Source: Nereocystis luetkeana (taxonomy: Eukaryota > Sar > Phaeophyceae > Laminariales > Laminariaceae). Taken from it: a stretch of DNA of 64,000 nucleotides. Position 1 is the stretch's first letter; every line of letters starts with the position of its first letter. The notes under the pieces were generated by a model, which was not told where the DNA came from, did no database searches, and worked only from the letters and a program-made list of their open reading frames with translations. This document shows, piece by piece, positions 3,549 to 58,071 of this stretch. The stretch lies in NCBI GenBank assembly GCA_031213475.1, contig JARUPZ010000035.1, positions 1,873,699 through 1,937,698 on the forward strand, read 5' to 3'. The position numbers were made by a program, and so were the translations under genes.

Positions 3549-3632
3549 GGGGGGGGGGGGGGGGGGGGGTGTACTCGATAGGAGAGATGTACTCGATCTC
3601 ATGCATGGCCGTAGTCGTATGACCATAGTTGG
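3549..3632 (-). mobile_element. Family A poly(C)-tailed retroposon, 5'-truncated copy
   Basis: A run of about 20 G is followed by TGTACTCGATAGGAGAG and CATGCATGGCCGTAGTCG. On the minus strand this is the 3' end of family A followed by a poly(C) tail. Only about 60 bp of the element body remain, as expected for a 5'-truncated retroposon insertion. Confidence 0.7.
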
Positions 3633-5046: not shown

Positions 5047-5664
5047 TTTTAGGCCAAGACGTGCCCTATTAAGGCATGCCCTATCGCACAGCCGGACGTG
5101 TCTGGCATGTAAGCGCCTTCAACAGGCGAATGGTTGAACACCCCTTTTTGCGACCTTCCTCGGCCAAAAACAGGCAAGAGGAGGGGACAACGGCAAAATC
5201 AACAGCGATAACAAAAACGCGGCAACACCACCTACTTCTTCAAGAGAGGTGCGGTGCTGGTGTAGAGCAGTAGGTTAACCCCAAACCCAACCGCTACACA
5301 GCCAGCAATCAAACGACCACATAATCAGGAATCGAAGGCTACATGGGCAGCCATCAACGGCTGTATGATCAGATATCAACGGCTATAAAGTAAGTAACCA
5401 ACGAGTATATGGCCAGTAATCAACGGCTATATGGTGAGTCGGTCATCAATGACTGCATGGTCCGTCACCAATGGCTATATCAAAGTATTTTTCGCCCGGT
5501 GCTGCTACATTGGCCGCAGTCTGGATGTTGGGAGCAAGCAAACGACGCAACGGCTACCAGCCGCCTTCGGGAGGTAACCTGCGAGAAGCATCCCTCCAAC
5601 CCTCGAGCGACCCCAAAACACAGCCCTGCTCCATCGCAATACCAAATTCCGCAACATCACAGTC

Positions 5665-7177: not shown

Positions 7178-7245
7178 CCCCCCCCGTCTCGAAAGGGATG
7201 CGTGGTCAATGGTCAAATGACTATGGCAAGCAACAAATGAATACG
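7178..7245 (+). mobile_element. LINE1 3'-end fragment
   Basis: After a C run come TCTCGAAAGGGATGCGTGG, TCAAATGACTATGGCAAGCA and ACAAATGAATACGCG. This is the 3' terminus of the LINE1 element seen complete at 17240-17300, here severely 5'-truncated. Confidence 0.65.
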
Positions 7246-13500: not shown

Positions 13501-16500
13501 CAATTTTGATATTGGTAGAAAGACATAGAATCAGACCTGGGTCAGCGTATCTGTTTCTTAGTACATCCATAGATGTTCTGTAGCATAGATAGCCTACGGA
13601 CTACCACAGTAGGTGTAGACTATTCACGAGGTGACAATTCATTCACCTGGAGGTGAGGCGACGCGTGGTCCATGAGCGCCTTGCACTCAGCGTCCGACGC
13701 GAAATCGTCCAGTAGGAGGACCTTCGCGTCTGGCTCGTCCAGGAACAGCTGCGGCACAAACAAACGGACAATCGACCACAAAAACAAAGAAAACAAGAAT
13801 AGTGAAGAAGAAAAGAAGCGCAAATTCAAAGTTTGCAAGAGCTTTACCACCTATTCGAGATTTGGTCTGGTTGGCTTACGGCCAGGGTTAGGGTCGCTCT
13901 GATTGGCTGAGGGTCAGGGTAAGGGTTGCTCTTAGGGTTAGGGTTAGTTACATTCGTCTCTTACACAGCAGTGTGTGATGACCATTTTCTCGATGAAGAG
14001 GCGAGCAACCTTCCGATGCGCAGACAAAAAAAAACAGCCACGTGACATAAGAAAACGGTCCAACACTCTCAAAACAGACGGGGCACTGAAAAATTATCAT
14101 ACAAAATATTAAAAACGAAAAAAAAAAAAAAGAAGCGAAATTCAAAGGAATAAACGGACAAAGCAAAACAAGCAAGTCAACTATAAATAACATAAAACAG
14201 AGCAAGACACCTCTTGAAAAAAAAAAACAGACAACACTTCGTAAGCGAAAAAAACAACCAAGTAATATGTGTAAGAAAACGAAACGATCAGACACCTCTC
14301 TGAATCCCTTTTTAGGCCCGCAGTCCCGTGTGGGGACAGACTACTTGAAATTAGAGGGGTTTGTTCCCAGAACGAGACCGCAGTCCTATAAGGGTCAACA
14401 AAAAACACTTAACTAACCCTTTTACGACCGCTTTGGGGGACAAACTGCTCAAGAATTTGAGCGGTTTTGTCCCCAAAACGAAACTGCAGTCCTAAAAGGG
14501 AATAGTATAGCAAAAAAACACACACACACACGCACACACACGAACGTGGATCCCAAGCCCTGCCAATTCATTTTACACACCTTTTCGTGTTACAAAGATG
14601 GCCTCTAGCCATGAGAACGTTCCTCACGTTCCCTGCTTACAGGCAGTCTCGAGGAAGTTGTCACCTCTACGCTCCCGGAACGTTCCCGGAATGATCCCTG
14701 CGCTCCGGACACTTAAAAGATCGTCATGCTATTAATATATGGTATTTACCACGAACCAGGCCGAGGCAAATCCCGTAAGCTTCCCTTGGTACGCTATCGT
14801 CATACTACGGGGGGCCATAGTTAATAGGACCAACTATTGTTAGTAAAAAGGTTTAAATATATAGGTTTTTATGTATGCCACAGGTCCTATTAACTATAGC
14901 CCCCCGTAATAGCATATTATAGCATACCGAAAGCGAGAGCATCCGAAGGACGCCCCCCTCGCAGCCTCCTCCGCACATGTTCTCGTTCGTGTCTTCTACA
15001 AACTTTCCTCGAGCTCTTGTCACTCAACGTTTTTTTTTCTCGTAGCTCAATAGACAGAGCGCGCTGGTGTCCGTCCGCAGATGGGCAAAAAGGATCCGAA
15101 CATCGCAACATCACAACTCTCGTATGGTGGCTTTACGTATATATAGGGTCGAATCCTCACAAAACGGGGGAAAAAAAAAAAAACGAACAAACGAATGAAA
15201 AACCTACACAAAACAAGAAAACGAGAAAATACGCCAACGAGCAGAGGAAAACTATCGAGAAAAACGAACACAAAACAAACAAACAAACAAACTACACAGC
15301 AAAACAACCAGGACATATCACAACAAAACGAGCGAAACGAGCCATTTGAAAAAAAAAAACATTCTGCTCCTAGATATGCGGACATTTTAGACATTCATAA
15401 ATTCAAATACGAAAGGTAGTTGTAGTTTTTTCAGGGGCAGAGCGGTACGAGAGGAAACGGGCTGCTACTGCTAACAAGAAATCCAACCCAACCGATTTTT
15501 TTCGCAAGACACCCTACCTGACCTCGTACCCCTACTACATATATCGCCTCCTAAGATCGCGGCACGGGGCTGCACTTTGTCCGATAATATAAGCCATGTG
15601 TAGACTCTGATATCAATATCAAACGGAGAATATATTCCCACCTCGAGTTAGCAACTACCTACCACTCTGAACGGGAATACAATACATGTTTAGACTCTGA
15701 TATCAATATCAAACGGAGCCTACATTCCCGGCCAGCGTCAGGGCGGCACCGCCGGTTGGCACGATACTTCAACTTACAGAACGTTTTCAAGGTTTTTGAA
15801 GGACCAGCGCAGCGTATTGAAATGTTGGGTCGGGGCCTGCTTGCGCAAACAAAACTTAATTCGAAGACATTGTCTCGGGTGAGGGCTACGTATTGAACCC
15901 CTCCCCAGGTTCAATAAGGCACGACCCCTCTAAGGCACTACCCCTGCCAGGCGTTTCTCGAATCGTAGAGCGCGTCCCCCCCCCTCCTCAACCCCATCCC
16001 TCTCTTCCCCCCCCCCCCCCCCACCAACCCATCCACCCACCCCACCCCACCCACCCACCCACCTACCTGCGCTTGGTACGTCGTCCCGCTGACCGGGTCC
16101 AACCAGTCCTGCTTCGACAGGCTCGAGTTCGTCGTCTCCATCTTGGGGTCGACGCAGGTGTAGTTCCTCGCCCGGTCCCCCACGATCTCGAGCATCCTCA
16201 TGTTCTTGTTCGCCTCGCTTTCCTTCTTCGCCAAATCCTCCGCCACCGCCTTCGTCAGGCACTCCGTGAACTCCGGCGAGGTCTCGTTCGGGTCTTGCGC
16301 GGCGCCGATAAGGCACGAGCCCTCGGCGGCGGCGAGGCCGCGCTGCTTGGCGGAAGCCTTCAGCACCGCCGGGCTGGACCGGCACTTCTCGGAGGCGGCC
16401 GACATGAGCTTGGCCGTGCGGGTCAGGGCGCTCTCTAGTACCACCTTGAATTCCCCCTTCTCGTCCCGCGAGACGTGCGCCTTTTGTTTTTTAGTTGGGG

Positions 16501-19500
16501 GGGGGGGGGGGAGTTGGAGGGGCGGGGCACGCGGGGGCGGGGCGGGGGGGGGGGGGGGGGGGGGTGAGGAGGGGGGGATTTCAGCCCTCCCCTGTCGTCT
16601 CGCGACACGTGCGCCTACATTGCGGGATAGTGAAAACCCCCGGAGGGGGGGAAAAGGGGGGGGGGGGGGGGGGGGGGGGGTGTACTCGATAGGAGAGATG
16701 TACTCGATCTCATGCATGGCCGTAGTCGTACGGCCATAGACCGTCGCATCCCTACAATGCCGGGGACGGAGCATGTCGGGTTTTCACCGACCAAGCAGAC
16801 ATTGCTGGCACCAAGCTTTGCGAAGCGCCGTGAGGTGGAGGGCGAGTCGCATGAAGGGTGAGCTGCATCCTACTAAGAACCGCTTGTGAGGCGGACTTGC
16901 ATACGGATGACAGCTCCGATGAGTTGATTTAATTTCCGGTGTAGGCACTTCCACAGACAGCAATGGGAGTACTACGTAACTGCCTCTTGGGTACCTTACC
17001 ACGGACACCACGTGATACGATAACTCCCACTTGTGCGGAGTAAATGTTCCTCACCTTGAACTGATGATCTTACCCGACAACCAGCTGCGGCCGACCGCCA
17101 AACAGAATGAGAAAAAAAACGGTACCCTGGTTGTCTACAGCAGTAGCTCAAGCAGTGAGTGGCATGTTTCACAGTGTCGTTGCCAACCGACGCCAACCCA
17201 ACCCATATAAAATAGGGCGGGGGGGGGGGAGGGGGGGGGCGTACTCATTTGTTGCTTGCCTTAGTCATTTGACCATTGACCACGCATCCCTTTCGAGACG
17301 GAGCACCGTTCCTACTCCTAATAGAGACACCTGCAACAATTGGGCGCTCATTACGTTGTTTCCATATATTACATAGAAAAAAATTGCTAATCTTATCCCC
17401 TTCCTGTTTGGCCGCCTGTGGCCACCATCTATCTCCTAGGATAGCGATCGTTTTCTCGCTGCTTTCTAGTGTGTCAAACTCCTCCATGTCAAATTCCTCT
17501 ATTTCCCTCATCTCCTCTTCTAACACATCCCGTTCCTCCTTGTATATTTCACATTCTCCTACTATGTGAGTTCTACTCTCTATCGCTTTGCCACACGGGC
17601 ACATCTGTGCATCTATTTCCTCCTACTCCCGGCTACTGGTATACCTCTTTCTTCTTTCTGGAAAGTCCAGGTCGCCTACACGAAACCGCAGCTTAGCGTT
17701 TTCGCGAAGTCCATTGGGCCGTGCAGATACGTTTTCATTCCTATTCCTTCCCTCAATCTCCCGTATATCTCTCGGTGTTTTTCCGATTCCACCTTGTTTC
17801 GTAGCGCTAGCCTTTCCCTTCTTTCTATCCTTTCTTCTACTTCTGCCTTGTACTTCCCAAACTTCCCGGCGAACATCACCTCTTCTTGATTTCCCCCTAT
17901 ATCCTTCCATACTTTTTCAACTACGCTATCCCACCTTATTCCAGTTCGCCCTTTTGTTACTCTCTCCCATATAGCTTTATCAACTATGGCCGGCAACCTC
18001 TTTTTTGGCATGTTCCTTACTTTATATTGCCATTTCAACTTTCTCATATCCCTGTTTGTCTTGAGTGGGTGCATTCCCGGTTCTGCTCTTAATACTGTAT
18101 TACTAGTCGTACTTGAGCATCTTAGGATTTTTTTAGCTGCTGTCATCTATGCTGTTTCCAACTGTTTTACGAGTTTCGCATTCCCTTCCCATACTTCTCC
18201 TGCATATTCTAGCTTTGGTACTATCACATTCATCAGGATACATCTCTTAATCCTGGTGTCAAGGTCCGAGTCTGATAGGAACGCATCCATCTTGCCTATG
18301 TGTGCTTTACTCTTTCCTATTACTTTTGCTACATGTGTATCCCAAGAGCAGTCTTTTGAGATCTCTACGCCAAGGTACGTATACTGGTCTACGATCGGCA
18401 ATTCATCTTCTCCCCACTTCCGACTGAAATTTATCGGGTTCACCTTATCTTCGTTACAAACAACTACTGCGCATTTCTTGACGTTCGCCGTCACCCTCCA
18501 TTTCCTAGTGAATTCTAGCGCGTTCTCTATTTGTTTCTGCAATCCTTCGGGTGTTTCTGATATCTCCACGAAGTCATCAGCAAACATCAATCTCGACTCT
18601 GTATCTTCCCCTACCGTGACTCCCTGCCTTGCTGCTTCAACTGCTACGATCAGGTCGTTAATATATATCTTGAATAGGTTGGGTGACAGCGTACATCCCT
18701 GTGCAACTCCTTGTAAAATATCAACATACTTCGATATTTCCCCGTCCAGCATCACAGCACTTCTCGCACATTCCGTCATCTTTTTCATCATTCTCCACAT
18801 CTTTCCTCTGATTCCGGAGTATTTCCCTATAGTTTTTCCCACAATCCATTTCTCCATACTGTGTCGTAGGCCTTCTGTACATCTAGAAAGAAACAGTACG
18901 TTTGTTAGTCCCGCGTCTTTCCTACCTTGGATTATCTTACCTAGAGTGTACACATGGTCTACGCAGCTACGGTTTGGCCTAAACCCTGCTTGCCCTTCGC
19001 TTATTTTGTCTTCCTTCTCCATCATCGTTCCCATTCTATCGTTCAAAATCTTACAAAATGTTTTGCCTACTGTGCTTCGTAGCGTTATCCCTCTATAGTT
19101 CCACGGGTCAGCCTTATCTCCTTTCTTGAAGAAGTTTACTACTACTCCTTCTCTCCACCTCCTGGGTGCGTACTCGTTTTTCCATATCCAGTTATACAAC
19201 ATAACCAGCATGGTAAGCATTCCTTCTCCCCCGTACTTCATAAATCCATTCACTATTTGGTCTGCCCCTGCTGCTGCCCTTCTATTCTTAAGTTTAGCTA
19301 CACATTTCTTTACCTCTTCCCTTGTGAACTCTCTCTGTAACCCTTCCGAACCACTGTCTTCCCTTTCTGATGCATCTACGTTCGCCTCTGCCCACGCGTT
19401 GATTTCCTTCTCGAATTCTGTGTCGAACGTTTCGTTGGCTGTGGGTGTTCCTAGCTTACGGTAATGCTCGACAAGTACTTCCCTTTTTCCCTTCGAACTA

Positions 19501-22500
19501 CTGACCATTTTACCGTTCTGTGCTCTTAAAAATAGGGCGGGGGGGGGGGGGCGTTAGGAGAGGCGGGGCGGACGGGGGGTGGACGCGCAATAATAATAAC
19601 ACTACGCCTGGTCAAAGGGTAATACCACCGTGCTCCCCCGTTCCGGCAAAAACACTAACCCCTCTCCCCACGTCCCGTCGTTGTCCCTCACCTGGGTTTC
19701 CTCAGCCAAACAACAAAAACTCCCCCCCCCCCCCCCCCCGCCCTCCCCTCCCTGAAAAAAAACAAATACCTCGAGGTCGAACTCCCCCATGGTGAAAAAG
19801 CCCATGATCTTGGGGTTCCACATACTGGCGTCGTATGCCGTCAAGCCCTCCACGTGCTGTTCGTCGTTGTCGCCGTTTTCATTCGTTTTGGGGTTTGGGC
19901 GTTTCCGAAGGAGAGAAATCACAATAGGCCCGAGGTAAAGCGGGGAGGGTCAGGGTAAGGGCAAGGAGTAAGGGCAAGGAGTATGGATAAGGGGGAGGAG
20001 TAAGGGCCAGGGGTAAGGCAAGGAGTAAGGGTATGGGCACGGGTAAGGGCAAGGAGTAAGAGTAAGGAGTAAGGGTAAAGGGTAAGGGCAAAGGATAAGG
20101 ATATGGGTATGGGTAAGGGTGAGGGTAAGGGTAAGGGTAACGTCAAGGGTAAGGGAAAATAGTAAGGGGAAGGGCCTGGGTAAGAAGCAAGAGTAAGGAG
20201 TAAGGGTAAGGAGTAAGGGTATGGGCACGGGTAAGGGCAAGGAGTAAGAGTAAGGAATGAGGAAAAGGAGAAAGTAAGGATGAGGGCAAGGGTATGGGTA
20301 TGGAGTAAGGGTAAGGAGGAAGGAGTAAGGGTACGGGTACGGAGTAAAGGGTAAGGCGCAAGGGTAAGGGCAAGGGGCAAGGGTAAAGGGCATGGAAAAA
20401 GCTATATACCACCATCCTTATTTAATCTTGTCGGATCTGCACACCGTGTCAATACAGATTACACTAACCTGCTGCTCGACGACCAGAAAGGTGTGCGGCT
20501 CGAGAGAGAGTCGACGATGTTGAGTACCAGGTATTGGTCATACCGTACTATACCGTTGAATGCTACCGTATATACTCGTAGCCCTTAAGAAAACACACCA
20601 AATGAGACGGAATTCCCGAGCCGATTCTCTATAAAAACAGGGGGGGGGGGGGGGGCACACGCCAACCAGAGACGGTGACACCGCTCGGTGGTTGGTGCTC
20701 TCACCGTTGCCAAGCAAAAAAAGCAGCTTGGGAAATCGTCCAAGGGGGTGTGTTACGTTACCACCCGTGTGATACGGTGTGCTGTTTTATCACCGGGGTG
20801 TGATACGGTGCGCTATCTTATCACCCGTGTGATAACGGTATACTCGTACCGGTACGTACTATGTACCATTGAGGGCTGTCAAGGCATACACTAAAACTAC
20901 TGATAATTGTAAGCAATGCTGCCGCTGTTGTATCATCCCATCTATTATTATACACACCGACCGCCGTCCCCTGCGTACGCACCTGCTCCTCGACGACGAG
21001 AAAGCTGTGGCTGATAAACGAGTCGATGTTGAGAGACCCGCTCGCGATGATAGCTTCCTCCTTCTGCCGCACCAGCGCACCCTTATTCCAGGTGTTGACC
21101 CAGTACACGGCAAGCTCCTCATCCACCTGCGCCCCCCCCCCCCCCCCGGAACACGCCCGCGAACAACGTTGAACACCGGGATCAATTCACGTCTTCACGG
21201 CCCCAGCACGCAACCCACATTACAACACTACACACCTCAGATACATCATGATCTATCTGTAGATGATCTAGTTCCTCGCCTCCCGTTGCGAGAGGTTGTG
21301 CAGGGTCTGCGTAGTACAATATGTAACCCAGGAAACATGCCCAAGATGTATCAGGCGGAACATACGGGTCCCACCCGGCCGCATGAGCTACTCCAGATCA
21401 TACACAAAAGAACCGGGATTCGGGAATAGACGGTCTATCTGCCTTGAGATAACCTACTGTAGGTCGTGGAGTGGGTGTGGTCTGTGGATGATTTTGTTCG
21501 CGTTGTGCAGACACAGCCGTAAGCAACAGCACGTTGCAGCAGCAGCAGCAAGCAAGCAACATGGTGAACCACGGAGGAGTCAAAATGCCCACATAATCTA
21601 GATACGAATCTTAATCTTCCAAGGTTTGGTGTTCATGCAGCACGGTTGTTCATTCAGCCATATTATTGCGCCACGAGCCGCACTACAGATGTTCTACCCG
21701 ACTACCTGGGTATATACCTCATCACACGGGTGATAAAATAGCACACCCCCTGGGGAAGAATTTCAGAGCCGACCGACCTCTCTCCAAAAGATGGGGGGCA
21801 CACACACTGCAGTAGCACGCACAGCGAAAAATGGTGCATCCGAAACATCGAAACATGTTTCGTCGAGATGTTGCTCCCATAGACGCGTCGCTCAGATGTT
21901 TCCACTCTCTCTCCCCGTGTGTCGAGGAAAACCAGCTTGAAAAAAAAACAATCGTCCGAGGGGGTGTGCTAATTACCTCATCACCCGTGTGATACATACG
22001 GTACTACGTAGGGGGTGTGTTGTCATATCACACGTGTCTCGTCTTATCACACGTGTGTTGTCATATCACACGTGTGTTATCTTGCATAGTTACACGGTAT
22101 ATAGAGTATCTGGATCCCTGGGTACGTAACTACAGTCGACGGGTAGCGTATCGGGGGGCGTAATATGGGCAATACATATATATATTTTTTTATTTTTATT
22201 TTTCCCTCTTCCCATTCATTATCTTCGCACATCTTCTTCTCTCTCTCCTTCCCACTCGTAACTCAGATCCGGGGTCACATATCAGGCTCTTCTCCCCCCT
22301 TCCCGCTACGGTACGTGCCTTCATTTTTATCGCGAGAAGATTTCAGCCTTTTCTTCCCTCGTCGACTCGCATCGAATTGTGCCCACCCACGCTGCAAGGC
22401 GCTCTCAACAATTGAATCCTTTTTATAATTTTGCAAATAAAGTCAAAGCCCGACCCACCTGGGGCTCGAACCCAGGACTCAAACAAGTAGAATTCGAGGT

Positions 22501-25500
22501 TAACCACTTGAACCACCGGGGCGACCGGCTGTTGGGTACCATATACCCGTTGGTGGAATCTACCCAGGCGATACCAGTAAACGAAGGTATCGTATGAAAA
22601 ATAGGCGCCATACTCAAGCTACTCTAACCACCGGTGCATATACTGTACCAATAGTCGTATACTGTCTCGATCTCAGGGTACGCAATTGTGCCGATGGGTA
22701 GTATACGGGTGTTGGTGGGCGGTAATCTAGGTGAAACATACCCGAGGAAAGTCTCCCAGGAACATGTCTACTGCTGTAGTGCGGCTTCCGCCCGGCGTGA
22801 TCAATAGCAGTCGGCATATAAGTTCGTTGTTAGCCGACTGTAAGAACTCGGCAGAGCTGGGACCCCCCCCCCCCCCGATATACAGGTGTTGTACTTCATT
22901 TGACCTACGTACAGAAAGCGTGTGACTTCGTCGACCGATAGCTTATGTGGGTGATGCTCGCAAACGCTTCGGAGAACCAACGAAGATAGCTTACAGCGGT
23001 TATCCACCCATTCCACGATGGCACGCGAGCTCGAGGGCTTACGGATGACGGTGAGCACTCGGAATGGTTTGACGTTACAGGGGCTGCGGCAAGGATGTGC
23101 GTTGCCTCCTCTGCCAATCAGATTTCGGTGATACCTATATACGCGGTGCTGGTCAAAGACGCTAGAAAGACCGTTTTTTTGGGCGCACCAAGATTTTTTT
23201 CGGCCTCAACATTATAGTTTTAGTGTAGGAGGCGGTGAGTCAAGGCGTCAAAGCACCGTCTCCTAGAATATCCAACATATTAGTTCTAGTGTAGGGGAGG
23301 TCAGTGAAGGCGTCAAACCGCCGTCTCCTGGCATATTCAACATACTATTTTGAGGGTAGGGGCGGTCAGTCAAGGCGTCTCAACCGCCGTCTCCTAGTAT
23401 ACCCAACATACCATTTTTAGGGTAGGGGCGGTCAGTCAAGGCGTCTCAACCGCCGTCTCCTAGCATATCCAACCTACTAGCTGCAATGTAGGGGACGGTC
23501 AGTCAAGCGTCTAAACCACCGTCAACTCTCAAGAGTATATTTTGTGCTGGTGCGCGCGCCATTGAGGACCCAGACATTCTATTATATGTACCACTCTGTC
23601 CGGGAGTAGGCTCTTATCATATGAATGTCAAACCGGGAGCATATCCGCGACCAGGGTGGTCCCGTATCACACGCGTGATAACATAACACACCCCCTCGGA
23701 CGAACTTTGAACCCGATTTTTCTCGACAGCGGGGAGAGAATGAACACCGAGCGACGCATTTATAAAAAAATCCCGACGAAATATTCGGAAATATCAGCCG
23801 TTTTCGTTGTGTGTGCCCCCTTTAAGGGAACGCTTTCGAGAAAATCGTCTCCGAAATTCGTCCCAGGGGGGGGGGGGGTGTTATCTTACCACCCGTGTGA
23901 TAAACCAGGGGTACGGTAAGGGATTCGGTTCACCTCCATCAACAGGAGGTCGGTGTGAGGGGAAAACGCGTGTGGCATTAGCACGTGTGCATACACGAAG
24001 GGCAGCGTTTGGGGGGGGGGGGGGAATGCTGCACGCCGACGATGCGAAAGTGTTACCTCAAAAAGTCGGCGGAAGGCCTTGCGAAGGACGATCGATGATG
24101 GCAAAAACACGGTACACCCCGGGCACAAGAATCGATTGCCACTTTCTTTCATGGTCTACAGAGTAGGTTTTTCCAAGGGCAGATGGCTAGATCATCTAAT
24201 CCCGATTTTGTCATCTTCTAGCTCATGCTGCCGGGTGGAACCCATGTAATCTGCATGAGTTACAGCGGTAGCGCCTGTTTCCCGAGTTGGATCTGTGTAC
24301 TAATAACCTATGCAGATCCTGCTCAGCTTCCCTCACAACGGCAGGCGAGGCACTAGATCATCTACAGTAGACAGATAGATAGATCGTGATCTACCAGAGA
24401 TGTGATACATTTAACATTTACTGTTTGTATATTGTGACCGTTTTCGAAGCAGCAGGTATCACCGTATCGGGAAAAGAAGGCGGAGACCATCATGCAAAAA
24501 AAAAAAACGGGACACCGCACCCCGGTCACTCCGGACCTCGCCGGTTGTCATCAAAAGCAGCGAGCCAGAGGAAAAAGACTCACGTAATAGACAGGCTTTA
24601 TTGGTATGCGCATATTTTGTAGCTGGTGGGCCGCCTTGCCAAGCGACGTTACGCCCAATCAATCGACAGATCAGTCGCGCGGGGGGGTATAGCCACCGAC
24701 GGTTGAGGCATGGGCTGTACGTTCACCCTGATGGTGTACATTATGCTAAACGCCGAGGTGATGGAAACCCTCATGTACGGGTGTGTGTAACGTGTAACGT
24801 GAACCTCTCTCGGCCCATGAACCATCCGCCCTGCTCCGTACGGAACACCACCCACCACCGCCACCACCTCCTACGAATCATCGGTTTCGGCGCCGACAGT
24901 GCACCGGCCGCCTCTCACAACACGCTAAGGCCCTCAAGACGACACAACGGGCGAGCGTCGAGGAGACCATCCGAATACGGTGTCCTCTCCTCTTCGCGGG
25001 GGGGGGGGGGGGGGGGGGTACAAAGGACGAGAATCAAGGATAGGCTACATACAACGCCGGGTGATGTTCGGGACGATGGCCGGTGGGGAGAATCCGGGAC
25101 AAGGCCGGCTGGTCTGCCAGGAAAGCACTGGGTCCCCACGTCTAGCGGACGACCTCAAAGGTGTTTCGAGCCACCGAGGGGTCAACGGAAGCAGCCTTTT
25201 TTTTTTTTTTCTTTTTTTTTCCATCCCATTCATTATCTTCGCACATCTTCTTCTCTCTCTCCTTCCAACTCGTAACTCAGATCCGGGGTCACATAGCAGG
25301 CTCTTCTCCCCCCTTCCCGCTACGGTACGGGCCTTCATTTTTATCGCGAGAAGATTTCAGCCTTTTCTTCCCTCGTCGACTCGCATCGAATTGTGCCTAC
25401 CCACGCTGCAAGGCGCTCTCAACAATTGAATCCCTTTTTCTTTTCTTTTTTTGCAAATAAAGTCAAAGTCCGACCCTCCTAGGGCTCGAACCCAGGACTC

Positions 25501-27533
25501 AAACAAGTAGAATTCGAGGTTAACCACTTGAACCACCGGGGCGACCGGCTTACACCGCTTAGTTGCTCGAAGTACTGTAGTATTAATAGTCGATACGGTG
25601 TTTGTTGGGTCCCATGGCGGCTCAATGCAGTAGAGGCGGAACCCTGTTTTACTGCTGGCGGGTGTAGTCCGATAATTCTTCGGTCGGTTAGGCACGGGGA
25701 CGGACGCACCGACATTGGTGTCGCTGCGTAGAGAACACGGTTTACAATACCACTCGTATCACGAAGTATCAAAACCTTTTTGATTGAATGTTAATATAGA
25801 AATAGTCTTCACATTTAGCGACAGAGTAACATTGTTCCAGAGTCGGTCGCCCCGGTGGTTCAAGTGGTTAACCTCGAATTCTACTTGTTTGAGTCCTGGG
25901 TTCGAGCCCCAGGAGGGTCGGACTTTGACTTTATTTGCAAAAATAAAAAAAGGGATTCAATTGTTGAGAGCGCCTTGCAGCGTGGGTAGGCACAATTCGA
26001 TGCGAGTCGACGAGGGAAGAAAAGGCTGAAATCTTCTCGCGATAAAAATGAAGGCACGTACCGTAGCGGGAAGGGGGAAGAAGAGCCTGCTACGTGTCCC
26101 CGGATCTAAGTTACGAGTCGGAAGGAGAGAGAGAAGAAGATGTGCGAAGATAATGAATGGGATGAGAAAAAAAAAAAAAAAAAAAAAAAAAGAGTAATAT
26201 TGTTGTTATTATTAGCACTACTGTGCGTGGTGTGAAGACAAACACATGTACCAGGTATGTATACATAAAACTGCGAAACTACTCGTACTACTGTACCGAG
26301 AATGCCGGAGAGCCATCCCGCGCCGACTCAGCAGCAGCAGCAGGATACCGATACTGACTGCTGCACTCAGATGCGTATGTATCCCATGTACGTACAAGTT
26401 ACAGCAGTATACCTGGTATGTAACACCGCACTGAACATCGATTGACTCCTGTGCCTGGGGAACCTTTTGGTGATAGATACCGGTACAAACACTGGACGGA
26501 AACATAAGAAGCGTTCAGATTTTAACATCGATATATACACGGTCCTTATATTTCCGTCCGTGGTGGCATAATGTTGACACCATGGTGCGTCGGATGCACG
26601 CGGTACGAGGAGTACGTCGAGCAGTACACGACACCTCTCAAATTTATTTGCTTTATTCTGCCTCTCGAGCCTCTACTGCAATTCACCAGCCGTGCTTTGC
26701 GTCACTGAATTCATGGTATACCTGTGGTGCTCTGGACGTACGGGTGGTCTGTTTCCGTTCGTTGTGCCCTCAAGTCTTGGGATCGGTTTGCGGAAGCGCA
26801 GAGACGATTGAGCAGATTACGTGGCGGGCCCTCGAAGAGATTGAAATGGAGTCTATACCCGAAGAGTGACTGACACATTCGACCAACCCTGTTGCAGTGC
26901 CCGATGATCTTCGAGTGAGAGTCGCTTTTACTTAGCGATTCGCCGTCACAGGCAAAGAAACTTTGTCCGAGTACATACTGCCGTTTATACCATACCCCAG
27001 CTACCCGGATGTCGACGGGTAGAAACAGAAAGAACACGCACACCCGTAAACACATGAAACGTGACACACGAAACACACAAACAGAACACACAGGATCAAC
27101 AACGTATCATCCAGCGGTGCGGAGTGCTGGAGGCAAACAAAGCGAAAAATCACCAGCCACCAGCCACAAATCTATTCCAAATAAACACACACGAATTAAG
27201 GTCGATGGGGTCAACGGCACGGAACGAACGCCCCTGTACAACAGACACCTTCGGGACGCCCACAACGGCTGCTGCCCTCGCTGGATTGGCAATACAACGG
27301 GGCGAGCAGCGCCAGGACTGGACCGAAGGCCAGAGCAAGGCCGGCGATCAGGAAGGGAAGTTCTTATTGGACCGCAAATATTTAGGCGATCCGTAGCATT
27401 CCGCTAGCGGCCTAGCCTTCGTCGCTCTCACCTCGTTGAGGACGGTCACGCGGACGGTGTTCGCCTTGGCCGCGCGTCCGACTCCCGCTACAAGCGCCAG
27501 AACCGTCACCAGGAGCCCAAGCATAGCTCTCAT
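7382..27533 (-). CDS. Prolyl 4-hydroxylase with N-terminal VHL-like domain (10 exons, about 485 aa)
   Basis: The product is an Fe(II)/2-oxoglutarate dioxygenase that would hydroxylate proline in secretory-pathway proteins. Coding exons on the minus strand: 27533-27432, 21126-20983, 19856-19770, 19691-about 19629, 16480-16067, 13748-13647, 13290-13172, 10191-10026, 8860-8777 and 7558-7382. Junction phases agree and all introns are GT-AG. Residues 1-22 form a signal peptide. Residues about 26-82 resemble a VHL beta domain ([23 protein letters not shown]). Residues 133-270 are a charged, Cys-containing region. The catalytic core follows, with iron ligands H380 and D382 (EYRPHCDGD) and H447 (TRHSGCP), and 2-oxoglutarate lysine K457 ten residues after H447, the classic spacing. 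The least certain point is the 3' end of exon 4. Introns carry LINE, SINE and tandem repeats. It is divergent from the elongase gene at 28062. Confidence 0.92.
7577..7710 (-). mobile_element. Family A retroposon fragment with poly(C) tail, in hydroxylase intron 9
   Basis: A G run is followed by GTGTACTCATTATCATGCA, TGGCCGTAGTCGTATGACC and ATCCCTACAATGCCGGGGAC. It lies only about 20 bp upstream of the exon 10 acceptor, so it supplies part of the intron's 3' end. Confidence 0.7.
7765..8120. repeat. G-rich degenerate GGGGTAGGG-type minisatellite
   Basis: The plus strand is built from variants of GGGGTAGGGG and GGGGCAGGGG for about 350 bases, within hydroxylase intron 9. It resembles a degenerate telomere-like array and should readily form G-quadruplexes. 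The proline-rich open frame on the opposite strand is a by-product. Confidence 0.8.
8215..8700. repeat. ATATCG-rich degenerate tandem repeat
   Basis: Units like ATATCGAACTTTCGATATATC and CGGAACTTCGAT recur with both orientations interleaved, making many short hairpins. It lies in hydroxylase intron 9. A similar patch occurs at 46140-46440. Confidence 0.75.
8777..8860 (-). CDS. Hydroxylase exon 9
   Basis: Flanked by a TTGTTAG acceptor and a CAG/GTGAAG donor, phase 0 at both ends, 28 codons. It encodes [20 protein letters not shown], the strand-turn segment between the HxD motif and the distal His. The GGGTTF phrase is typical of prolyl 4-hydroxylases. Confidence 0.92.
9004..9096. mobile_element. 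Family B hairpin element
   Basis: ACCGCAGTCCCGTTTCGTGG and CCAAATCGGGACTGCGGT form inverted arms around a short centre (ACTTGGGATTAGACTGG). Part of a second, weaker copy lies just upstream (8970-9003). Confidence 0.8.
9262..9980 (-). repeat. Repeated copies of the hydroxylase exon 8 3' edge within intron 8
   Basis: The exon 8 end, read on the plus strand as CCATGGTGGCAATGCGTCCG and CCTGGTCGG, recurs in imperfect form near 9265-9290, 9422-9455, 9500-9530, 9888-9905 and 9957-9975. It is interleaved with C-rich tracts and sequence like TACTAACAA. These look like a tandem duplication that captured the exon/donor boundary. Confidence 0.65.
9612..9850 (+). mobile_element. Family A retroposon, 5'-truncated copy in hydroxylase intron 8
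   Basis: It contains GAAACTGTCATCCATGTGCA, AGTAGGATACGGCTCACCC, TGCCTGGTCGGTGAAAACTC, GGCTACGCATGAATTCGAGT and ACACCCTCCCC, in the order of the consensus, and ends in C-rich sequence. Confidence 0.7.
10026..10191 (-). CDS. Hydroxylase exon 8 (HxD catalytic motif)
   Basis: It starts with one base completing an Arg codon begun in exon 7, then encodes [20 protein letters not shown] and [20 protein letters not shown]. It ends GGRIATM before a GTGAGG donor. The HCD triad supplies two iron ligands. Confidence 0.95.
10237..10332. mobile_element. Family B hairpin element
   Basis: AACCCTTTTAGCACCGCA and CGGTTCTAAAAGGCC are the ends. The arms CCCATTTGGGGGACAAA and TTTGTCCCCAAAACGGGA are inverted. It lies about 45 bp upstream of exon 8, in intron 7. 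Confidence 0.8.
10905..11500. repeat. Higher-order tandem repeat (hydroxylase intron 7)
   Basis: Two alternating modules recur. One is GGGACTGTCAACGCGCAC, near 10916, 11079, 11325 and 11471. The other is CACGACTGCCCGCGTGTACC, near 10997, 11151 and 11404. Spacers contain GAACAAATTGACCCTT and AGATCTCGA. The spacing is irregular (about 145-245 bp). Confidence 0.7.
11510..12660. other. Intronic stretch without recognisable gene
   Basis: This part of hydroxylase intron 7 contains a GC-rich block with open frames on both strands (11600-11960) and a CCCACC-rich block (12220-12410). No domain or splice-consistent exon was recognised. Confidence 0.4.
12663..12727. repeat. Interstitial telomere-like CCCTAA repeats
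   Basis: About nine degenerate CCCTAA/CCCTGA units occur on the plus strand. A counterpart with TTAGGG units in the opposite orientation lies at 13888-13950. Confidence 0.75.
12914..13113. repeat. 68-bp tandem repeat, three copies
   Basis: TCAAGCGTGTTGACCGTTTT starts at 12914, 12982 and 13050, an exact 68-bp period. The copies differ at only a few bases (for example GTGGTGAAG versus GTGGTAAAG). It sits 59 bp downstream of hydroxylase exon 7, in intron 7. Confidence 0.95.
13172..13290 (-). CDS. Hydroxylase exon 7
   Basis: A TTTTGACAG acceptor starts this exon and a CAG/GTACGT donor ends it in phase 2. It encodes [20 protein letters not shown] and ASITADLYR, the helical linker before the jelly-roll core. 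GAGKST resembles a Walker A motif by chance, since the flanks are hydroxylase-like. Confidence 0.88.
13647..13748 (-). CDS. Hydroxylase exon 6
   Basis: 34 codons, phase 0 at both ends, between a GCCGCAG acceptor and a CAG/GTGAAT donor. It encodes [20 protein letters not shown] and [13 protein letters not shown], the start of the prolyl 4-hydroxylase catalytic domain (the family's V-x-x-(L/V)-x-x-F-L-x-x-x-E-C pattern). Confidence 0.93.
13888..13952. repeat. Interstitial TTAGGG-like repeats
   Basis: GCCAGGGTTAGGGTCGC, GGGTCAGGGTAAGGGTTGC and TTAGGGTTAGGGTTAG form a degenerate telomere-like patch inside hydroxylase intron 5. Confidence 0.75.
14304..14500. mobile_element. Two adjacent family B hairpin elements
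   Basis: Copy one (14304-14398) and copy two (14415-14500) each have CCGCAGTCCCG-type and GACTGCAGTCCTAAAAGGG-type ends with inverted GGGGACA/TGTCCCC arms. Copy one is the more diverged. Confidence 0.8.
14806..14908. mobile_element. Family M MITE (foldback, about 103 bp)
   Basis: Terminal inverted repeats TACGGGGGGCCATAGTTAAT and ATTAACTATAGCCCCCCGTA flank an A/T-rich centre. The flanking bases TA on both sides fit a TA target duplication. Confidence 0.88.
15036..15175 (+). other. tRNA-like sequence with A and B boxes, split
   Basis: TAGCTCAATAGACAGAGCG matches an internal promoter A box and D arm, and GGGTCGAATCCTC about 100 bases later matches a B box. The distance is too long for an intron-less tRNA and the acceptor stem pairs only with many G-U pairs. 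It is a tRNA-derived relic or possibly an intron-containing tRNA. Confidence 0.3.
15590..15740. mobile_element. Family D element, tandem copies
   Basis: AGACTCTGATATCAATATCA occurs twice (about 15605 and 15693), with ACCACTCTGAACGGGAATAC between. It is a family D pair inside hydroxylase intron 5. Confidence 0.5.
16067..16480 (-). CDS. Hydroxylase exon 5 (linker region, 138 codons)
   Basis: The longest exon: acceptor ACAAAAG, donor CAG/GTAGGT, phase 0 at both ends. It encodes a charged, Ala/Lys-rich region with five Cys ([48 protein letters not shown]). It ends [16 protein letters not shown] and reads directly into exon 6. I do not recognise a domain; the Cys could form disulfides in the secretory pathway. 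Confidence 0.88.
16650..17205 (-). mobile_element. Family A poly(C)-tailed retroposon, full-length copy
   Basis: Minus-strand orientation: the 5' head at about 17205 begins GGGTTGGGTTGGCGTCGGTT, and the body reads through AAGAGGCAGTTACGTAGTAC, AGTAGGATGCAGCTCACCC and CTTGGTCGGTGAAAACCCGA. The 3' end is ATCGAGTACATCTCTCCTAT and CGAGTACACC plus about 30 C (a G run at 16650-16680). It is about 530 bp and non-coding. It is the reference copy for the family. Confidence 0.82.
17208..19549 (-). mobile_element. LINE1: 5'-truncated non-LTR retrotransposon with poly(C) tail
   Basis: Minus-strand element in hydroxylase intron 4. The 3' end is TCAAATGACTAAGGCAAGCA then ACAAATGAGTACGCC followed by C-rich DNA (plus-strand G run at 17219-17240). 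It is flanked on both sides by AAAATAGGGCGGGGGGG (17211 and 19532), a possible target-site duplication, although the G run blurs it. The 5' part is missing (no endonuclease domain); the reverse transcriptase and a C-terminal domain remain. A longer-lived degenerate copy is at 57630-60930. Confidence 0.85.
17245..19508 (-). pseudogene. LINE1 reverse transcriptase and C-terminal domain, frameshifted
   Basis: Read from 19508 downward, the product has RT landmarks: [77 protein letters not shown] and FADDF with its two catalytic Asp, then a thumb with [19 protein letters not shown]. Motif A, with the first catalytic Asp, lies in another frame at about 18850-18905, so two frameshifts bracket it. 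An in-frame stop at 18147 separates the next 156 codons. A further frame change precedes the Cys-rich end [20 protein letters not shown] (17604-17245). The protein is therefore inactive. A reverse transcriptase acts on target-primed DNA in the nucleus when intact. Confidence 0.88.
19629..19691 (-). CDS. Hydroxylase exon 4 (3' boundary uncertain)
   Basis: After an AAACCCAG acceptor the frame reads [22 protein letters not shown] place the donor at ACG/GTGGTA because it keeps phase 0 with exon 5. An alternative GTTAGTG donor about 30 bases earlier looks stronger but would break the frame unless another exon intervenes. Confidence 0.55.
19770..19856 (-). CDS. Hydroxylase exon 3
   Basis: 29 codons, phase 0: [29 protein letters not shown]. 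The acceptor GAACAG is the first AG after a pyrimidine-rich stretch about 65 bases upstream, and the donor is GAG/GTATTT. The next intron is only 78 bp, the shortest in the gene. It would complete the VHL-like module. Confidence 0.78.
19935..20400. repeat. Purine-rich AAGGGTAAGGGCAAGGAGT-type minisatellite
   Basis: About 460 bases of the plus strand consist of GTAAGGG, GCAAGG and GGAGTAAG variants with almost no pyrimidine other than T in GTA. Its position in intron 2, adjacent to exon 3, means the hydroxylase transcript carries the pyrimidine-rich complement. Confidence 0.85.
20470..20523 (-). pseudogene. Partial duplicate of hydroxylase exon 2
   Basis: The minus strand can be read as [14 protein letters not shown] followed by a GTTAGT donor, closely matching the exon 2 end [13 protein letters not shown] with its GTGCGT donor. 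A one-base shift inside CTCAACATCG breaks the frame and there is no matching 5' half. It is probably a dead partial exon copy within intron 2. Confidence 0.7.
20983..21126 (-). CDS. Hydroxylase exon 2 (VHL-like module)
   Basis: 48 codons, phase 0 both ends, acceptor GGCGCAG and donor CAG/GTGCGT. It encodes [20 protein letters not shown] and [19 protein letters not shown]. Joined to exon 1 (VRVTVLNE) it gives the order of strands seen in VHL beta domains: N-E, YW-V-N, a Gly turn, I-x-S-F-x-x-H-x-F-x-V. Confidence 0.9.
21235..21450 (+). mobile_element. Family C repeat
   Basis: Contains GATCTATCTGTAGATGATCT, GTTGCGAGAGGTTGTGCAGG, CGGGTCCCACCCGGCCGC and GACGGTCTATCTGCC in the order seen at 35160-35420. 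It lies in hydroxylase intron 1. Confidence 0.75.
22178..22530 (-). mobile_element. tRNA-derived SINE, copy 1
   Basis: On the minus strand the head CGCCCCGGTGGTTCAAGTGG and GGGTTCGAGCCCCAGGTGG carries A-box-like and B-box (GGTTCGAGCCC) promoter elements and a good 5-bp T stem (CTGGG/CCCAG). A conserved body and an A-rich tail (T-rich at 22184-22205) follow. It lies in hydroxylase intron 1. Confidence 0.85.
22885..23170 (+). pseudogene. Non-LTR retrotransposon RT fragment (frameshifted)
   Basis: Successive plus-strand frames give [36 protein letters not shown], then [10 protein letters not shown] and [11 protein letters not shown]. The order is motif A-like (missing its clear Asp), then the QG(C/V) motif B segment of a reverse transcriptase. 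Two or more frameshifts and a stop make it a relic. Together with 24600-25195 it appears to be one element split by repeats, and it lies antisense inside hydroxylase intron 1. Confidence 0.7.
23205..23527. repeat. About 65-bp tandem repeat, five units
   Basis: AAGGCGTC (or AAGCGTC in the last unit) recurs near 23243, 23308, 23372, 23438 and 23505. Each unit carries GGGGCGGTCAGTCAAGGCGT and ACCGCCGTCTCCTAG, so GGCGGT and ACCGCC can form a stem. Confidence 0.88.
24160..24420 (-). mobile_element. Family C repeat
   Basis: Contains GGCAGATGGCTAGATCATCT, TGCTGCCGGGTGGAACCCA, TCACAACGGCAGGCGAGG and ACAGATAGATAGATC, the reverse orientation to the copy at 35160-35420. Confidence 0.75.
24600..25195 (+). 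pseudogene. Retrotransposon C-terminal fragment (post-RT region)
   Basis: Plus-strand frames include [20 protein letters not shown] then LLRIIGF, KTRCESVEETIR-like sequence across frames, [21 protein letters not shown] and [11 protein letters not shown] recall this phrase order from a non-LTR retrotransposon family common in algal genomes. Several frameshifts and stops are present. A SINE is inserted exactly at its 3' limit (25195). Confidence 0.6.
25195..25552 (-). mobile_element. tRNA-derived SINE, copy 2
   Basis: Same head, body and tail as copy 1, with a nearly pure T run (25197-25220) as the complement of the poly(A) tail. It forms an inverted pair with copy 3, separated by about 285 bp. 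Confidence 0.88.
25837..26190 (+). mobile_element. tRNA-derived SINE, copy 3, with target-site duplication
   Basis: Plus orientation: the head GGTCGCCCCGGTGGTTCAAG is followed by GTTCGAGCCCCAGGAGGGTC, a body of about 250 bp, and about 25 A ending at 26190. AGAGTAACATTGTT (25823-25836) before the head and AGAGTAATATTGTT (26191-26204) after the tail are a 14-bp target-site duplication with one mismatch. Confidence 0.93.
26205..27431. other. 5' part of hydroxylase intron 1, no recognised gene
   Basis: Apart from a family D element near 26506-26575, I see only unsupported open frames (for example 26582-26869 on the plus strand and 26711-27091 on the minus strand). Neither matches a family I know. 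Confidence 0.4.
27432..27533 (-). CDS. Hydroxylase exon 1 (signal peptide and start)
   Basis: ATG at 27533 begins [20 protein letters not shown], a textbook signal peptide (basic n-region, hydrophobic core, Ala/Gly cleavage region at about residues 15-22), then [13 protein letters not shown]. The donor is GAG/GTGAGA in phase 0. This is the first Met in the frame after an upstream stop. Confidence 0.9.
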
Positions 27534-28220: not shown

Positions 28221-31200
28221 GTGGGTGAATGTATGGGTGTGTGTGGGTGGGCCAGTGGGACGGCTTTCCGACAGTAAGAAGGATCGAATCACAATCCGAG
28301 CCACAGGATGCAGATATATATTCCAGCCCCACCGATCACGGATCTCGCCCGCGCAGCAGCTGCAGTGCATTTGGCCTCTCTTTCCGAGTGACGATGCTGC
28401 TACAGCTGCCGTGATGCTTTTACCTGGATAACCCGGGCCCCTGCCACGCGGGAGGACTGGAGGTGCATCTAGTTGAGACGGGTGGGTTGATAAAGATTCC
28501 CTCGGGGTCCTCTAGGTTTTCCTGTCTGCGGGGAATTGTTTTCGCTTGTCGGCGACTCCCGTTCTCTGAAATCAACAAACCGCGACGTATTTTCCCAACG
28601 TTTTTTTGTTCCTTTCACCCACACTCCGCACTCAGCACTCCCGCCTAGCACTGCGAAAACGCGAGTACACCAACAGCAGCAGCAGTAGCCAGGTACGTAC
28701 CAGTACTGCTGTGTTTTACCACTCTGTCTCCGAATATAAGGATAGTTTAGATATTCACATTCAACCCAAACGTTCCTTATACCTCCGGACATAATGGTCC
28801 CTGGTATGTAAATACCAGGTATCGAACAAGTGTGTGTGTGTTCTTGACAATATTATCAATATCCTAAGAAGTGCTGACTCATCGGACACATCACCTATTC
28901 CCACAGTTCACCACCTAGACCTTTCAGGGCAGATAGATAATTCCTGATCTATATGATGATCTGTGGTATGATCTGTATGATCTACAGCAGAAGTACGCAT
29001 GAACCTGCAGCAGTAGTACGAGCTCATCTTGCCGGATGAGAGCCGTGTATGTACTCTGCATGATCTGGCACACGCACGGTTTTCCCGTGCGTTCGATCTA
29101 TACTAATGCTTGTGTACAGATCCTGCACAGCACGTCACGTATAACGCCAGGGTTTTAGGATGGTACAGACTATCTATAACCCTTTTAGTACCGCAGTCCC
29201 GTTTTCGGGGCAATCTACTTATAATTTGACTGGTTTGTCCCCAAAACGGGACTGTGTTTCTAAAAGGGTTTTATTCGGGGCAAACTGCAGTCCCATTTTG
29301 GGGGCAAACCAGTCAAATTATGAGTAGTTAGTCCCCAAAACGGGACTGCAGTCCTAAAAGGGCAGATCGTGATCTGCACGACGTGTGTAAAGCTTACGCT
29401 TTGCAGAACGAGAGTTGATACCGAATTTAGTGTAGACCGGACACTTTCTCCGAAACCAGTCAAATTATGAGTAGTTAGTCCCCAAAACGGGACTGCAGTC
29501 CTAAAAGGGCAGATCGTGATCTGCACGACGTGTGTGAAGCTTACGCTTTGCAGAACGAGAGTTGATACCGAATTTAGTGTAGACCGGACACTTTTTCCGA
29601 ATAAAAAATCCTTGCTGGGCAAGCATTTTTGTGTCTGTTGTTTGTTGTTACTCCTTCGATGTGCCCTGAACTTGGCACCCGTCTAGACGGGAATGTGAAG
29701 ACCGTTGGTGTATACACACATACCAATATATAGCGGTCCTTACATTTCCGTCCAAAATGGTACCTGGTACTTTTTGGACCTATTGGTTCACTGCTATCAG
29801 GACCGGGATGTCAGGAGACGGCGCTGTCACCTCTTGACAGACATCAACTTTGCCTTGACATGTCTTGACCGACAACCAAAATACTATTAATAACATACCG
29901 GTACCAGGTACCAGGTACCAGGTAGGTTTTAATGTAAAACACTCGGCCCTACACCCTTGGCAGCTCCCGATTTGCATCGCTTGACATGTCTCCTGATATA
30001 TTTGATCGTGGCAGCTTCTACTGCTGCTGTACGGACGGTACCACTGTGCCCCGAAATTTAAGGAACGTTTTAACATTGATCTTTAATTCAAGAGTTGCTT
30101 ATATCTGGGGACAGTTTGGCACCCGGTAGGCCTCGTACTACAGACAGCAACAGCAGTGACGTGTTACATCAAAAATGTCAGGAGACAGCACAACTGCTGT
30201 CCCGCCTTGACAGCCAGCAACTTTGTCTTGACTTGATTGACATGCCTTGACTGACACCAAGCTACCACCAGGTAGGTTTTGGTGTGGAACACTCGGCCTT
30301 TACCCTACACCACTTGACAGCGCACGTTTTCTTTGTCTTGTTGGACATGTCTCCTGGCTCCTGGGACACCTTTGCGTGACGTGTGACAACATCAAAATTT
30401 GAAGTACTGGCACCAGCTGGCCAGCACGAACAGCCAGCAATGCGAACCAGTTCGCGCGGGTTGCTGTACCTCATGGTGGAATAATAACAATGCCCACTGC
30501 TTGCTGTTGGCGGTTCAGCAGTACTAGATACTGGATACGGATCAGCAGCGAATGTTATAAATATAATTTGCGAATTTAAATGTTCATGTTGGAGGTTATA
30601 CTCCTGTACGCATAAACCGGTCTTTATGTTGGTTTGTTTGGCGGCCACGCCGCTCTATCCAGGGCAATTCACGGGTCGGGTCAAACCTCGCGGATCAGGT
30701 CACAAGTCGGGTCGGCCCTGATCGGCCAACGGTGACCAGGCCCGATCCGTACGAATTTAAATAGCTCCTGACCCGACCCGACCCGACCCGGCCCGGCCTA
30801 ACCCGTGCGATTTTGAAACATTGCTGACCCGACGCGATGGTTGGCGTCCTGACCCGTGAAGTGCGCTGGCTCTATCCTACCCATCAGTGCACCACCCCCC
30901 TGTCCCCTACCCCATTCGCGCCTCCTACAGTGTTCGGATTCAATACTGCTCATCAGAAATCAGAAACCCCATATTTCCTGCGTTCGATCTTGGCACGTTC
31001 GGGTTTTCCCATGAGTTGAAGGCAGTCCCTGGTATTGCTGTGTGTAGTGAGGCATTCCTCGTTATCGCAGCGGTACTATTCTACTACCAGGTACTGCTGG
31101 AGCAATAACAGCACTCTGGTGGTAATAATAATGCAACTATTACTAGTTAGCAGGTGTTCGATCCTTGTGTTCTGGCGCGGCATGATGGGTGTGATCGAGT

Positions 31201-57933: not shown

Positions 57934-58071
<138 letters not shown>

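Follow-up and report, generated by a model that had tools for sequence, protein, structure and literature searches.

A LINE and a short retroposon with homologous 3′ ends and C runs at both junctions in the kelp Nereocystis luetkeana

In a stretch of 64,000 nucleotides from Nereocystis luetkeana (contig JARUPZ010000035.1, positions 1,873,699 to 1,937,698; hereafter the window), an APE-type LINE, LINE1, and a short retroposon, family A, have homologous 3′ ends that are followed by a C run. This arrangement, which a preliminary description of the DNA had placed at 16650–19549, is borne out by shuffle tests and by the layout of the elements. Moreover, C runs flank the copies of both elements on both sides and on the same strand, which suggests that at least part of the C run is target sequence and not a dedicated tail. 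The likely mode of movement, both for a LINE with an APE endonuclease and for the non-autonomous family A, is target-primed reverse transcription at C tracts. The principal features are as follows.

17240–19528, minus: LINE1, APE-type LINE copy, 5′-truncated
18147–19508, minus: LINE1 open frame of 453 aa, containing the reverse transcriptase (RT) domain
17240–17303, minus: LINE 3′ end in common with family A, 64 nt
17245–17247, minus: TGA closing the LINE reading frame, 5 nt ahead of the C run
17219–17239, minus: C run that follows LINE1, C9TC11
19529–19551, minus: 5′ copy of the LINE1 target duplication as read from the sequence, C13 + GCCCTATTTT
17209–17229, minus: 3′ copy of the LINE1 target duplication, likewise a sequence reading, C11 + GCCCTATTTT
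16681–17214, minus: family A, near-full-length short retroposon of about 534 bp, directly downstream of LINE1 in the same orientation
16681–16771, minus: 3′-terminal part of family A, homologous to that of the LINE, with 50 identities in 63 aligned bases
16656–16680, minus: C25 run that follows family A

Judged by its sequence, the LINE is a member of the APE-type class, given the RT domain, the upstream endonuclease in one frame with it and the 5′ truncation of copies with a fixed 3′ end. The RT frame of LINE1 matches RVT_1 over the cut-off (E = 2.2e-18) and, in phmmer searches, the PDB entries 8c8j (RNA-directed DNA polymerase, E = 9.8e-16), L1 ORF2p (E about 2e-15) and R2 (E = 3.5e-13). At its 5′ side LINE1 breaks off in coding sequence that lies downstream of the endonuclease. 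A longer LINE copy (locus L068) encodes, in a single frame with the downstream RT, an Exo_endo_phos domain (E = 2e-8, residues 195–345); RVT_1 in this frame (764–823) is below its cut-off, and the locus piece stops inside the RT. The open frames of two further copies (L062 and L063) finish with ...QMTKASNK at the TGA listed above. The LINE1 3′ terminus reads ...TCAAATGACTAAGGCAAGCAACAAATGAGTACG (17240), followed by C9TC11, and the last 95 nt are the block best kept between LINE1 and the older LINE2 (0.925). A poly(A) tail was not found at the LINE 3′ end; a C run stands there instead in 19 of 20 copies selected by an internal piece of the element. The motif TATTTT in the 3′ duplication of LINE1 is also the 5′ start of the neighboring family A copy.

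Family A, whose 3′ terminus reads ...CGAGTACA (16681) before the C25 run, is short, non-autonomous and present in many copies, its core giving 22,826 matches in a genome-wide pattern count, and has its 3′ end in common with a LINE. On these sequence features it is SINE-like, but it falls outside the strict definition of a SINE, for want of a recognizable Pol III head: one window copy gave no Rfam match at E ≤ 5 and, by simple pattern, no A or B box. Thus, of the earlier proposal of a LINE with a parasitic SINE, the partnership agrees with the RVT_1 and Exo_endo_phos domains, the homologous 3′ ends, the one-sided truncation and the fall in copy number toward the 5′ end, and only the label "SINE" does not hold strictly. 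The LINE probably mobilizes the SINE-like family A.

The homology of the two 3′ ends was evaluated by shuffling. For each of the seven real family A copies of the window compared with LINE1, 0 of 1000 shuffles scored as well, and a hand-made family A string was identical to the LINE 3′ end at 53 of 64 positions, with 0 of 5000 shuffles as good; these tests rule out a chance resemblance. Furthermore, a BLAST search with the LINE query matched the family A copy at 7616–7669 (E = 8e-4). A conserved 3′ hairpin was considered and rejected: the 3′ ends fold no better than shuffled sequences (z from −1.7 to +1.2), and the candidate stem is identical in the LINE and family A and hence gains no support from covariation.

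Several further copies in the window illustrate the layout.

3570–3628, minus: family A fragment, 59 bp, flanked by a clean duplication, C9+ACCACACCAA ahead of it and C23+ACCACACCAA behind
7184–7245, plus: LINE 3′ fragment, 62 bp, with C18 ahead and a short 3′ C run (4)
37654–37830, plus: family A copy, truncated, with a run of about 21 C at its end
37973–38030, plus: LINE 3′ fragment, 58 bp, ending in C18
49677–49782, minus: truncated family A copy, C17 before and C19 after
57634–60936, minus: LINE2, older, diverged and interrupted, its pieces 75–83% identical, with a LINE1-type 3′ end and C run

LINE2 also has C11 ahead of its 5′ end. In total, 18 BLAST matches in the window reach the family A or LINE 3′ end, corresponding to 17 copies, because 7615–7728 was matched by both queries. 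As had been claimed, many 5′-cut copies keep the 3′ end beside a C run: a same-strand run of at least 6 lies within 60 nt of 16 of the 18 matches, the exceptions being family A at 9614–9837 and the LINE fragment at 7184–7245, with a longest run of 4 each. The tie of C runs to the common 3′ end holds in part, since such runs are common elsewhere as well: of the 67 C/G runs of at least 9 in the window, 22 adjoin a same-strand copy and none an opposite-strand copy, and 45 lie elsewhere. The genome contains 96,209 C/G runs of at least 12, a pattern count for which the reversed control, being a C run itself, is uninformative.

With respect to truncation, genome-wide pattern counts for the LINE at growing distance from the 3′ end are 5,677, 4,223, 381, 179 and 92 (all reversed controls 0), where the first two belong to 35-mers about 20–54 and 44–78 nt from the end and the last to the endonuclease region; the fall is due in part to the better conservation of the LINE 3′ end among copies and not to truncation alone. 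Among 30 pattern-anchored loci, LINE lengths range from 58 to over 1,500 nt, with fixed 3′ ends and scattered 5′ ends. In 13 of these 30 the copy starts 58–68 nt from the 3′ end. We read this cluster as a truncation hot spot because the upstream sequences look unrelated by eye, and for the same reason a distinct SINE family behind the very short pieces was rejected. In one set of family A copies, with L001, L002, L005, L009, L012 and L018 left out as duplicates, 5′ ends are scattered across positions 1–502. In another, 130 family A chains that included overlapping loci, less 10 duplicate chains, give 120 copies. Equal truncation at both ends, to which the preliminary description had opposed its proposal, was not found: truncation is one-sided, apart from 18 of the 120 family A copies that end short of the 3′ end, 8 of them cut by the edge of the fetched piece.

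The C runs at the 5′ side of the copies are a point absent from that description. A C run of at least 6 within 30 nt ahead of the 5′ junction is present in 44 of 51 LINE copies (9 of 60 loci, in which the element starts less than 80 nt from the locus edge, being omitted), compared to a window background of 2.4%; the corresponding counts of other runs are G 0, A 1 and T 1. A 3′ C run follows the element in 58 of the 60 loci, a count that is biased because the loci were found by queries including C letters, so that the better figure is the 19 of 20 given above. This internal-piece set comprises 20 of the first 23 places, 3 already in the earlier set having been skipped and L092, the same place as L041, retained; of its 14 copies with a visible 5′ junction, 11 have a C run before the element and none a G run. 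Of the 120 family A copies without duplicates, 95 extend to the 3′ end and have a visible flank on each side; a C run is found in 83 of these 95 at the 3′ side (G in 1) and in 50 at the 5′ side (G in 0). Age or other sites may explain the copies that lack a 5′ C run of 6 (7 of 51 for the LINE and 45 of 95 for family A). Insertion into one kind of repeat, the hallmark of target-specific LINEs, is thus a strong preference and not an exclusive one.

Additional evidence comes from target duplications and nested insertions. Matches of at least 4 bases past the C run at both ends occur in 16 of 64 copies, compared to 7.3% in mismatched pairs; of these, 6 consist almost wholly of C, which leaves 10, and two of the copies (L041 and L092) represent one place. 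A duplication of C alone is indistinguishable from a C tract. An unconstrained duplication search yielded 6 of 51 LINE copies at a score of at least 8, compared to 3.2%. In three clean cases, L036, L100 and the window copy at 3570–3628, the 5′ C run lies outside the duplicated flank; L100, with C16+GCCCGATAGG at both ends, sits in a C run that belongs to an older LINE. By a loose pattern, the C run of an earlier family A or LINE insertion houses 16 of 64 copies, L092 having been dropped as the same place as L041. Moreover, two LINE copies (L028 and L053) occupy one and the same C run within a tRNA-like SINE. In L037, a copy of family A also ends at this C run, as visible on the 3′ flank only, and L090 is probably another such insertion.

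These data bear on alternative readings of the C run. If it were a true tail, the RNAs would end in poly(C), produced by a polymerase or by slippage of the RT, insertion would have no selectivity for C tracts and the 5′ runs would be secondary. Such a tail would account for the greater frequency of family A C runs at the 3′ side and for the LINE run lengths, the 3′ run being longer in 39 and the 5′ run in 11 of 52 pairs, in a set mostly chosen by queries with C letters. It is unlikely, however, in view of the 5′ C runs of the LINE copies with no G runs, their position outside the duplicated flank in the clean cases, the two LINE insertions in a pre-existing C run of another repeat and the similar run lengths at the two ends of family A (medians 9 and 8; 3′ longer in 28 and 5′ longer in 25 of 57 pairs, no clear difference). 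The earlier formula "poly(C) instead of poly(A)" is therefore right in that C replaces A at the 3′ end and needs amendment in that the C run, present also at the 5′ side, is at least partly target. A combination of the two, in which insertion occurs at short C tracts and the run is lengthened by slippage during priming, is a possibility that we regard as doubtful although it deserves consideration: four empty copies of the tRNA-like SINE have C5–C6 and the occupied sites have flanking runs of 17–18, already before the element, and the longer LINE 3′ runs point the same way, but family A has no such difference, replication slippage after insertion also expands homopolymers, and longer tracts may be better targets.

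The partnership itself could be questioned, inasmuch as family A might represent the 3′ portion of another autonomous LINE and not be mobilized by the LINE1 family, which would fit an identity of only about 78–85% between the two 3′ ends. We find this improbable, because 23 of 120 family A copies begin in the first 20 reference bases, several of them showing variants of TATTTTATATAGG directly behind a C run, the longest stop-free stretch of the window copy is at most 88 codons, and family A has no likeness to the LINE body, a BLAST comparison of the 540-bp window copy with LINE1 having given nothing at E ≤ 1.

Under the favored reading, target-primed reverse transcription at C tracts, the element RNA would carry a 3′ region of about 65–95 nt, observed as sequence and predicted to act in recognition, followed by C residues. 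The endonuclease, to judge from strand and position, would nick the G strand of a C/G homopolymer, and cDNA synthesis would be primed by the 3′ end of the G run, paired to the C stretch in the RNA. Synthesis would often halt early and leave the 5′-truncated copies that are observed. A second-strand cut in or just past the tract would duplicate the C run with or without a few bases, as seen in a minority of copies and compatible with many others. RNA read through from an element in a C tract would already end in C, so that neither a dedicated tail nor a poly(A) signal would be needed, and the absence of a tail would agree with a reading frame that closes 5 nt short of the C run. Furthermore, each insertion would end up with a C tract on either side and thereby provide new targets. 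We tentatively entertain, as a serious possibility short of an even chance, a self-building target system in which the pair borrows the C tract as its RNA 3′ end, with no polyadenylation, a 3′ UTR of 5 nt and a recognition element within the coding sequence, and leaves a C tract on each side, so that each insertion makes landing sites and helps fill the genome with C tracts.

In L1 and Alu, LINE and partner alike have a 3′-terminal homopolymer. The kelp pair resembles them in this respect and differs, as far as the relevant passages of PMC3747384 describe them, in having C for A, a C run also ahead of the 5′ junction and common sequence beyond the homopolymer. In the stringent pairs with 3′-end recognition outlined in the same passages, such as UnaL2 and the eel SINE, an autonomous LINE and a short element likewise have a common 3′ end; the kelp pair is distinguished by its C runs, by a common end inside the LINE coding sequence and by the lack of a recognizable Pol III head in family A. 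The tails named there for LINEs and SINEs are poly(A), TAA, TGTAA, TTG, TTGATG and, for some SINEs, poly(T). Among APE-type elements, the target-specific clades given in the pertinent section of PMC4640811 are R1 and Tx1, and the non-LTR retrotransposons of microsatellites and telomeric repeats covered there share with the kelp LINE a short repeated target that recurs at the 3′ junction, whereas the kelp target is a mononucleotide C tract. A literature search over titles and the starts of abstracts found no report of a C-tract LINE. Searches of viral contigs, prokaryote contigs (both sensitive to close relatives only) and phage records confirmed no relatives. The genome also gave 68 light-harvesting matches, one of which has LHCI, ACP and FCP chains among its PDB relatives, as expected of an alga or a similar organism.

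The LINE 3′ ends named in those passages of PMC3747384 are A-rich or short-repeat tails. If the kelp pair indeed uses C tracts both as target and as 3′ end, target-primed reverse transcription can be defined by homopolymer pairing, with no requirement for poly(A) itself. The pair would then provide an example from nature of target and RNA tail being one sequence, and would connect a retrotransposon with the abundant C tracts of a genome.

Within 16650-19549 the sequence carries two retroelement copies in tandem:

19528 to 17240, minus strand, LINE1, a 5'-truncated copy of an APE-type LINE; 3' end ...AACAAATGAGTACG, then C9TC11
17214 to 16681, minus strand, copy of family A, a short protein-less retroposon; 3' end ...TATCGAGTACA, then C25

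LINE1 is preceded by C13 plus GCCCTATTTT and followed by C11 plus GCCCTATTTT, and is thus flanked by a duplication that comprises the C run and ten more bases. Given that TATTTT constitutes the first bases of the family A copy, LINE1 seems to have landed at the C tract that borders an older family A copy on its 5' side; at other A copies, a C run plus TATTTTATATAGGTTGGG is seen again in variant forms. Degenerate tandem repeats of the AAGGGTAAGGG type, similar to telomere-like units, occupy 19946-20390, and a short MITE-like repeat of ~95 bp, matching its own kind in both orientations, is present at 50127-50223, 29177-29362, 33564-33661, 9005-9102 and 31557-31651.

The window copy of the LINE encodes a reverse transcriptase domain (RVT_1, E=2.2e-18), whose relatives of solved structure include 8c8j, L1 ORF2p and R2. 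In a longer copy (L068), which carries stops further on, one open frame encodes an apurinic-type endonuclease together with the first part of the reverse transcriptase; ~1.2 kb upstream of the frame, containing sub-repeats, is common to two longer copies. The reading frame ends five bases before the C run, so that the LINE is almost devoid of a 3' UTR and the 3' end that it has in common with family A is coding sequence. When LINE1 is compared with LINE2, an older, diverged copy at 57634-60936, conservation is highest in the final 95-nt block (0.925, vs 0.67-0.89 for the others). LINE2 is split by other repeats, among them one of roughly 100 bp, with further copies as follows:

14803-14921, copy of the roughly 100-bp repeat
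32140-32246, copy of the roughly 100-bp repeat
33911-34020, copy of the roughly 100-bp repeat
55457-55563, copy of the roughly 100-bp repeat

Another LINE copy (L063) is interrupted at 4934-5328 of its locus by ~395 bp, probably another mobile element, flanked by a repeat of ~4 LINE bases.

The preliminary description held that a LINE and a short retroposon have a common 3' end, and this is borne out: a hand-made A string matches the LINE 3' end at 53 of 64 aligned bases, a score reached by 0/5000 dinucleotide shuffles, and seven real window copies match it at 29/36 to 53/63 bases (0/1000 shuffles each). With BLAST, the full window A copy found nothing in LINE1 at E<=1, and LINE1 as query matched one other A copy (E=8e-4); outside the 3' end, family A shows no similarity to the LINE. 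Family A is about 534 bp long; in its window copy no stretch free of stops exceeds 88 codons, a simple pattern search gives neither an A box nor a B box, and Rfam gives no match. Family A is SINE-like in size, number and shared end, and not in its head.

The predicted one-sided truncation likewise holds, with fixed 3' ends and scattered 5' ends. Where the 3' end alone served as anchor (30 loci), the LINE copies measure between 58 and more than 1,500 nt, with a hot spot 58-68 nt before the C run where 13 of the 30 start. Family A reaches its 3' end in 78/86 copies, with 5' ends scattered over 1-502 (twelve at 1-18); in a larger duplicate-free set the 3' end is missed in 18/120, 8 of which are cut off at the edge of the retrieved sequence. 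Genome-wide, the 26-base LINE end including five C has 5,994 matches (<=2 mismatches), and 35-base pieces (<=3 mismatches), ordered by distance from the 3' end, have 5,677 at about 20-54 nt, 4,223 at about 44-78 nt, 381 at about 1,046 nt, 179 at about 2,222 nt and 92 at about 3,360 nt (endonuclease region), a fall that partly reflects stronger 3' conservation; reversed-pattern controls gave 0. For the core of family A the count is 22,826 (control 0). The genome contains 96,209 C/G runs of at least 12, which exceeds the number of copies counted several-fold; LINE and family A insertions therefore probably do not account for all genomic C tracts. At G000:C18:4260167-4318567, four exact LINE pieces recur at intervals of about 19.3-19.7 kb and probably reflect a large tandem duplication, and light-harvesting gene matches cluster at G000:C32:5191488-5290931.

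With respect to the C run, which had been described as a poly(C) tail, its presence at the shared 3' end stands: in 19/20 LINE copies chosen by an internal piece, a run of at least 5 occurs within 75 nt downstream of that piece, and family A has a C run on this side in 83/95 copies (G run, 1). The run is, however, not confined to that end. Among 51 LINE copies with a visible junction, a C run of at least 6 lies within 30 nt before the 5' junction in 44 (G 0, A 1, T 1; 2.4% of random 30-mers from the window), and in 46 a C run of 5 or longer stops 0-12 nt short of it. Of the internally chosen copies, 14 have a visible 5' junction, preceded by a C run in 11 and by a G run in 0; for the family A 5' side the figures are 50/95 and 0. 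These flanking runs are strand-specific: the window has 67 C/G runs of at least 9, of which 22 lie next to a copy of the same strand and 0 next to one of the opposite strand.

Some insertions occupy a C run that another repeat already carried. LINE insertions L028 and L053 share such a run within a tRNA-like SINE, four empty copies of which have C5-C6; L090 resembles them by eye, and a family A copy in L037 has this run directly at its 3' flank. A loose pattern places 16/64 copies within C runs that belong to older A or LINE copies. When a C run followed by matching flank was demanded at both ends of 64 copies, 16 matched over 4 or more bases past the run, vs 7.3% in mismatched pairs, six of the 16 being nearly all C and one place counted twice. 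Many remaining copies have a C run at or near the junction and no recognisable flank duplication; a duplication within the tract is thus possible in these, albeit not provable. As to length, the 3' run is the longer in 39 and the 5' run in 11 of 52 LINE pairs, a set chosen mostly with C-bearing queries, and family A runs are alike at the two ends (medians 9 and 8; 28 vs 25 of 57 pairs).

LINE/SINE pairs with common 3' ends are described, with poly(A), TAA, TGTAA, TTG or TTGATG tails (PMC3747384), and microsatellites and telomeric repeats are named among LINE targets (PMC4640811); the open-licence literature searched yielded no report of C-tract LINEs. Our observations fit target-primed reverse transcription at C tracts. 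Under this model, the endonuclease would nick the G strand of the tract, the G end could pair with C residues of the element RNA, these residues would come from read-through of the tract, and family A would be mobilised by the LINE. Slippage may in addition lengthen the C runs. A third retroposon, with three copies (93-95% identical; 22185-22530, 25197-25550 and 25841-26190), looks tRNA-derived by eye, and ARAGORN found no tRNA gene. The C-tract elements land in its internal C5-C6 run. The end of this retroposon is A-rich on its own sense strand, which suggests that the genome also has a second machinery, of the poly(A) type.
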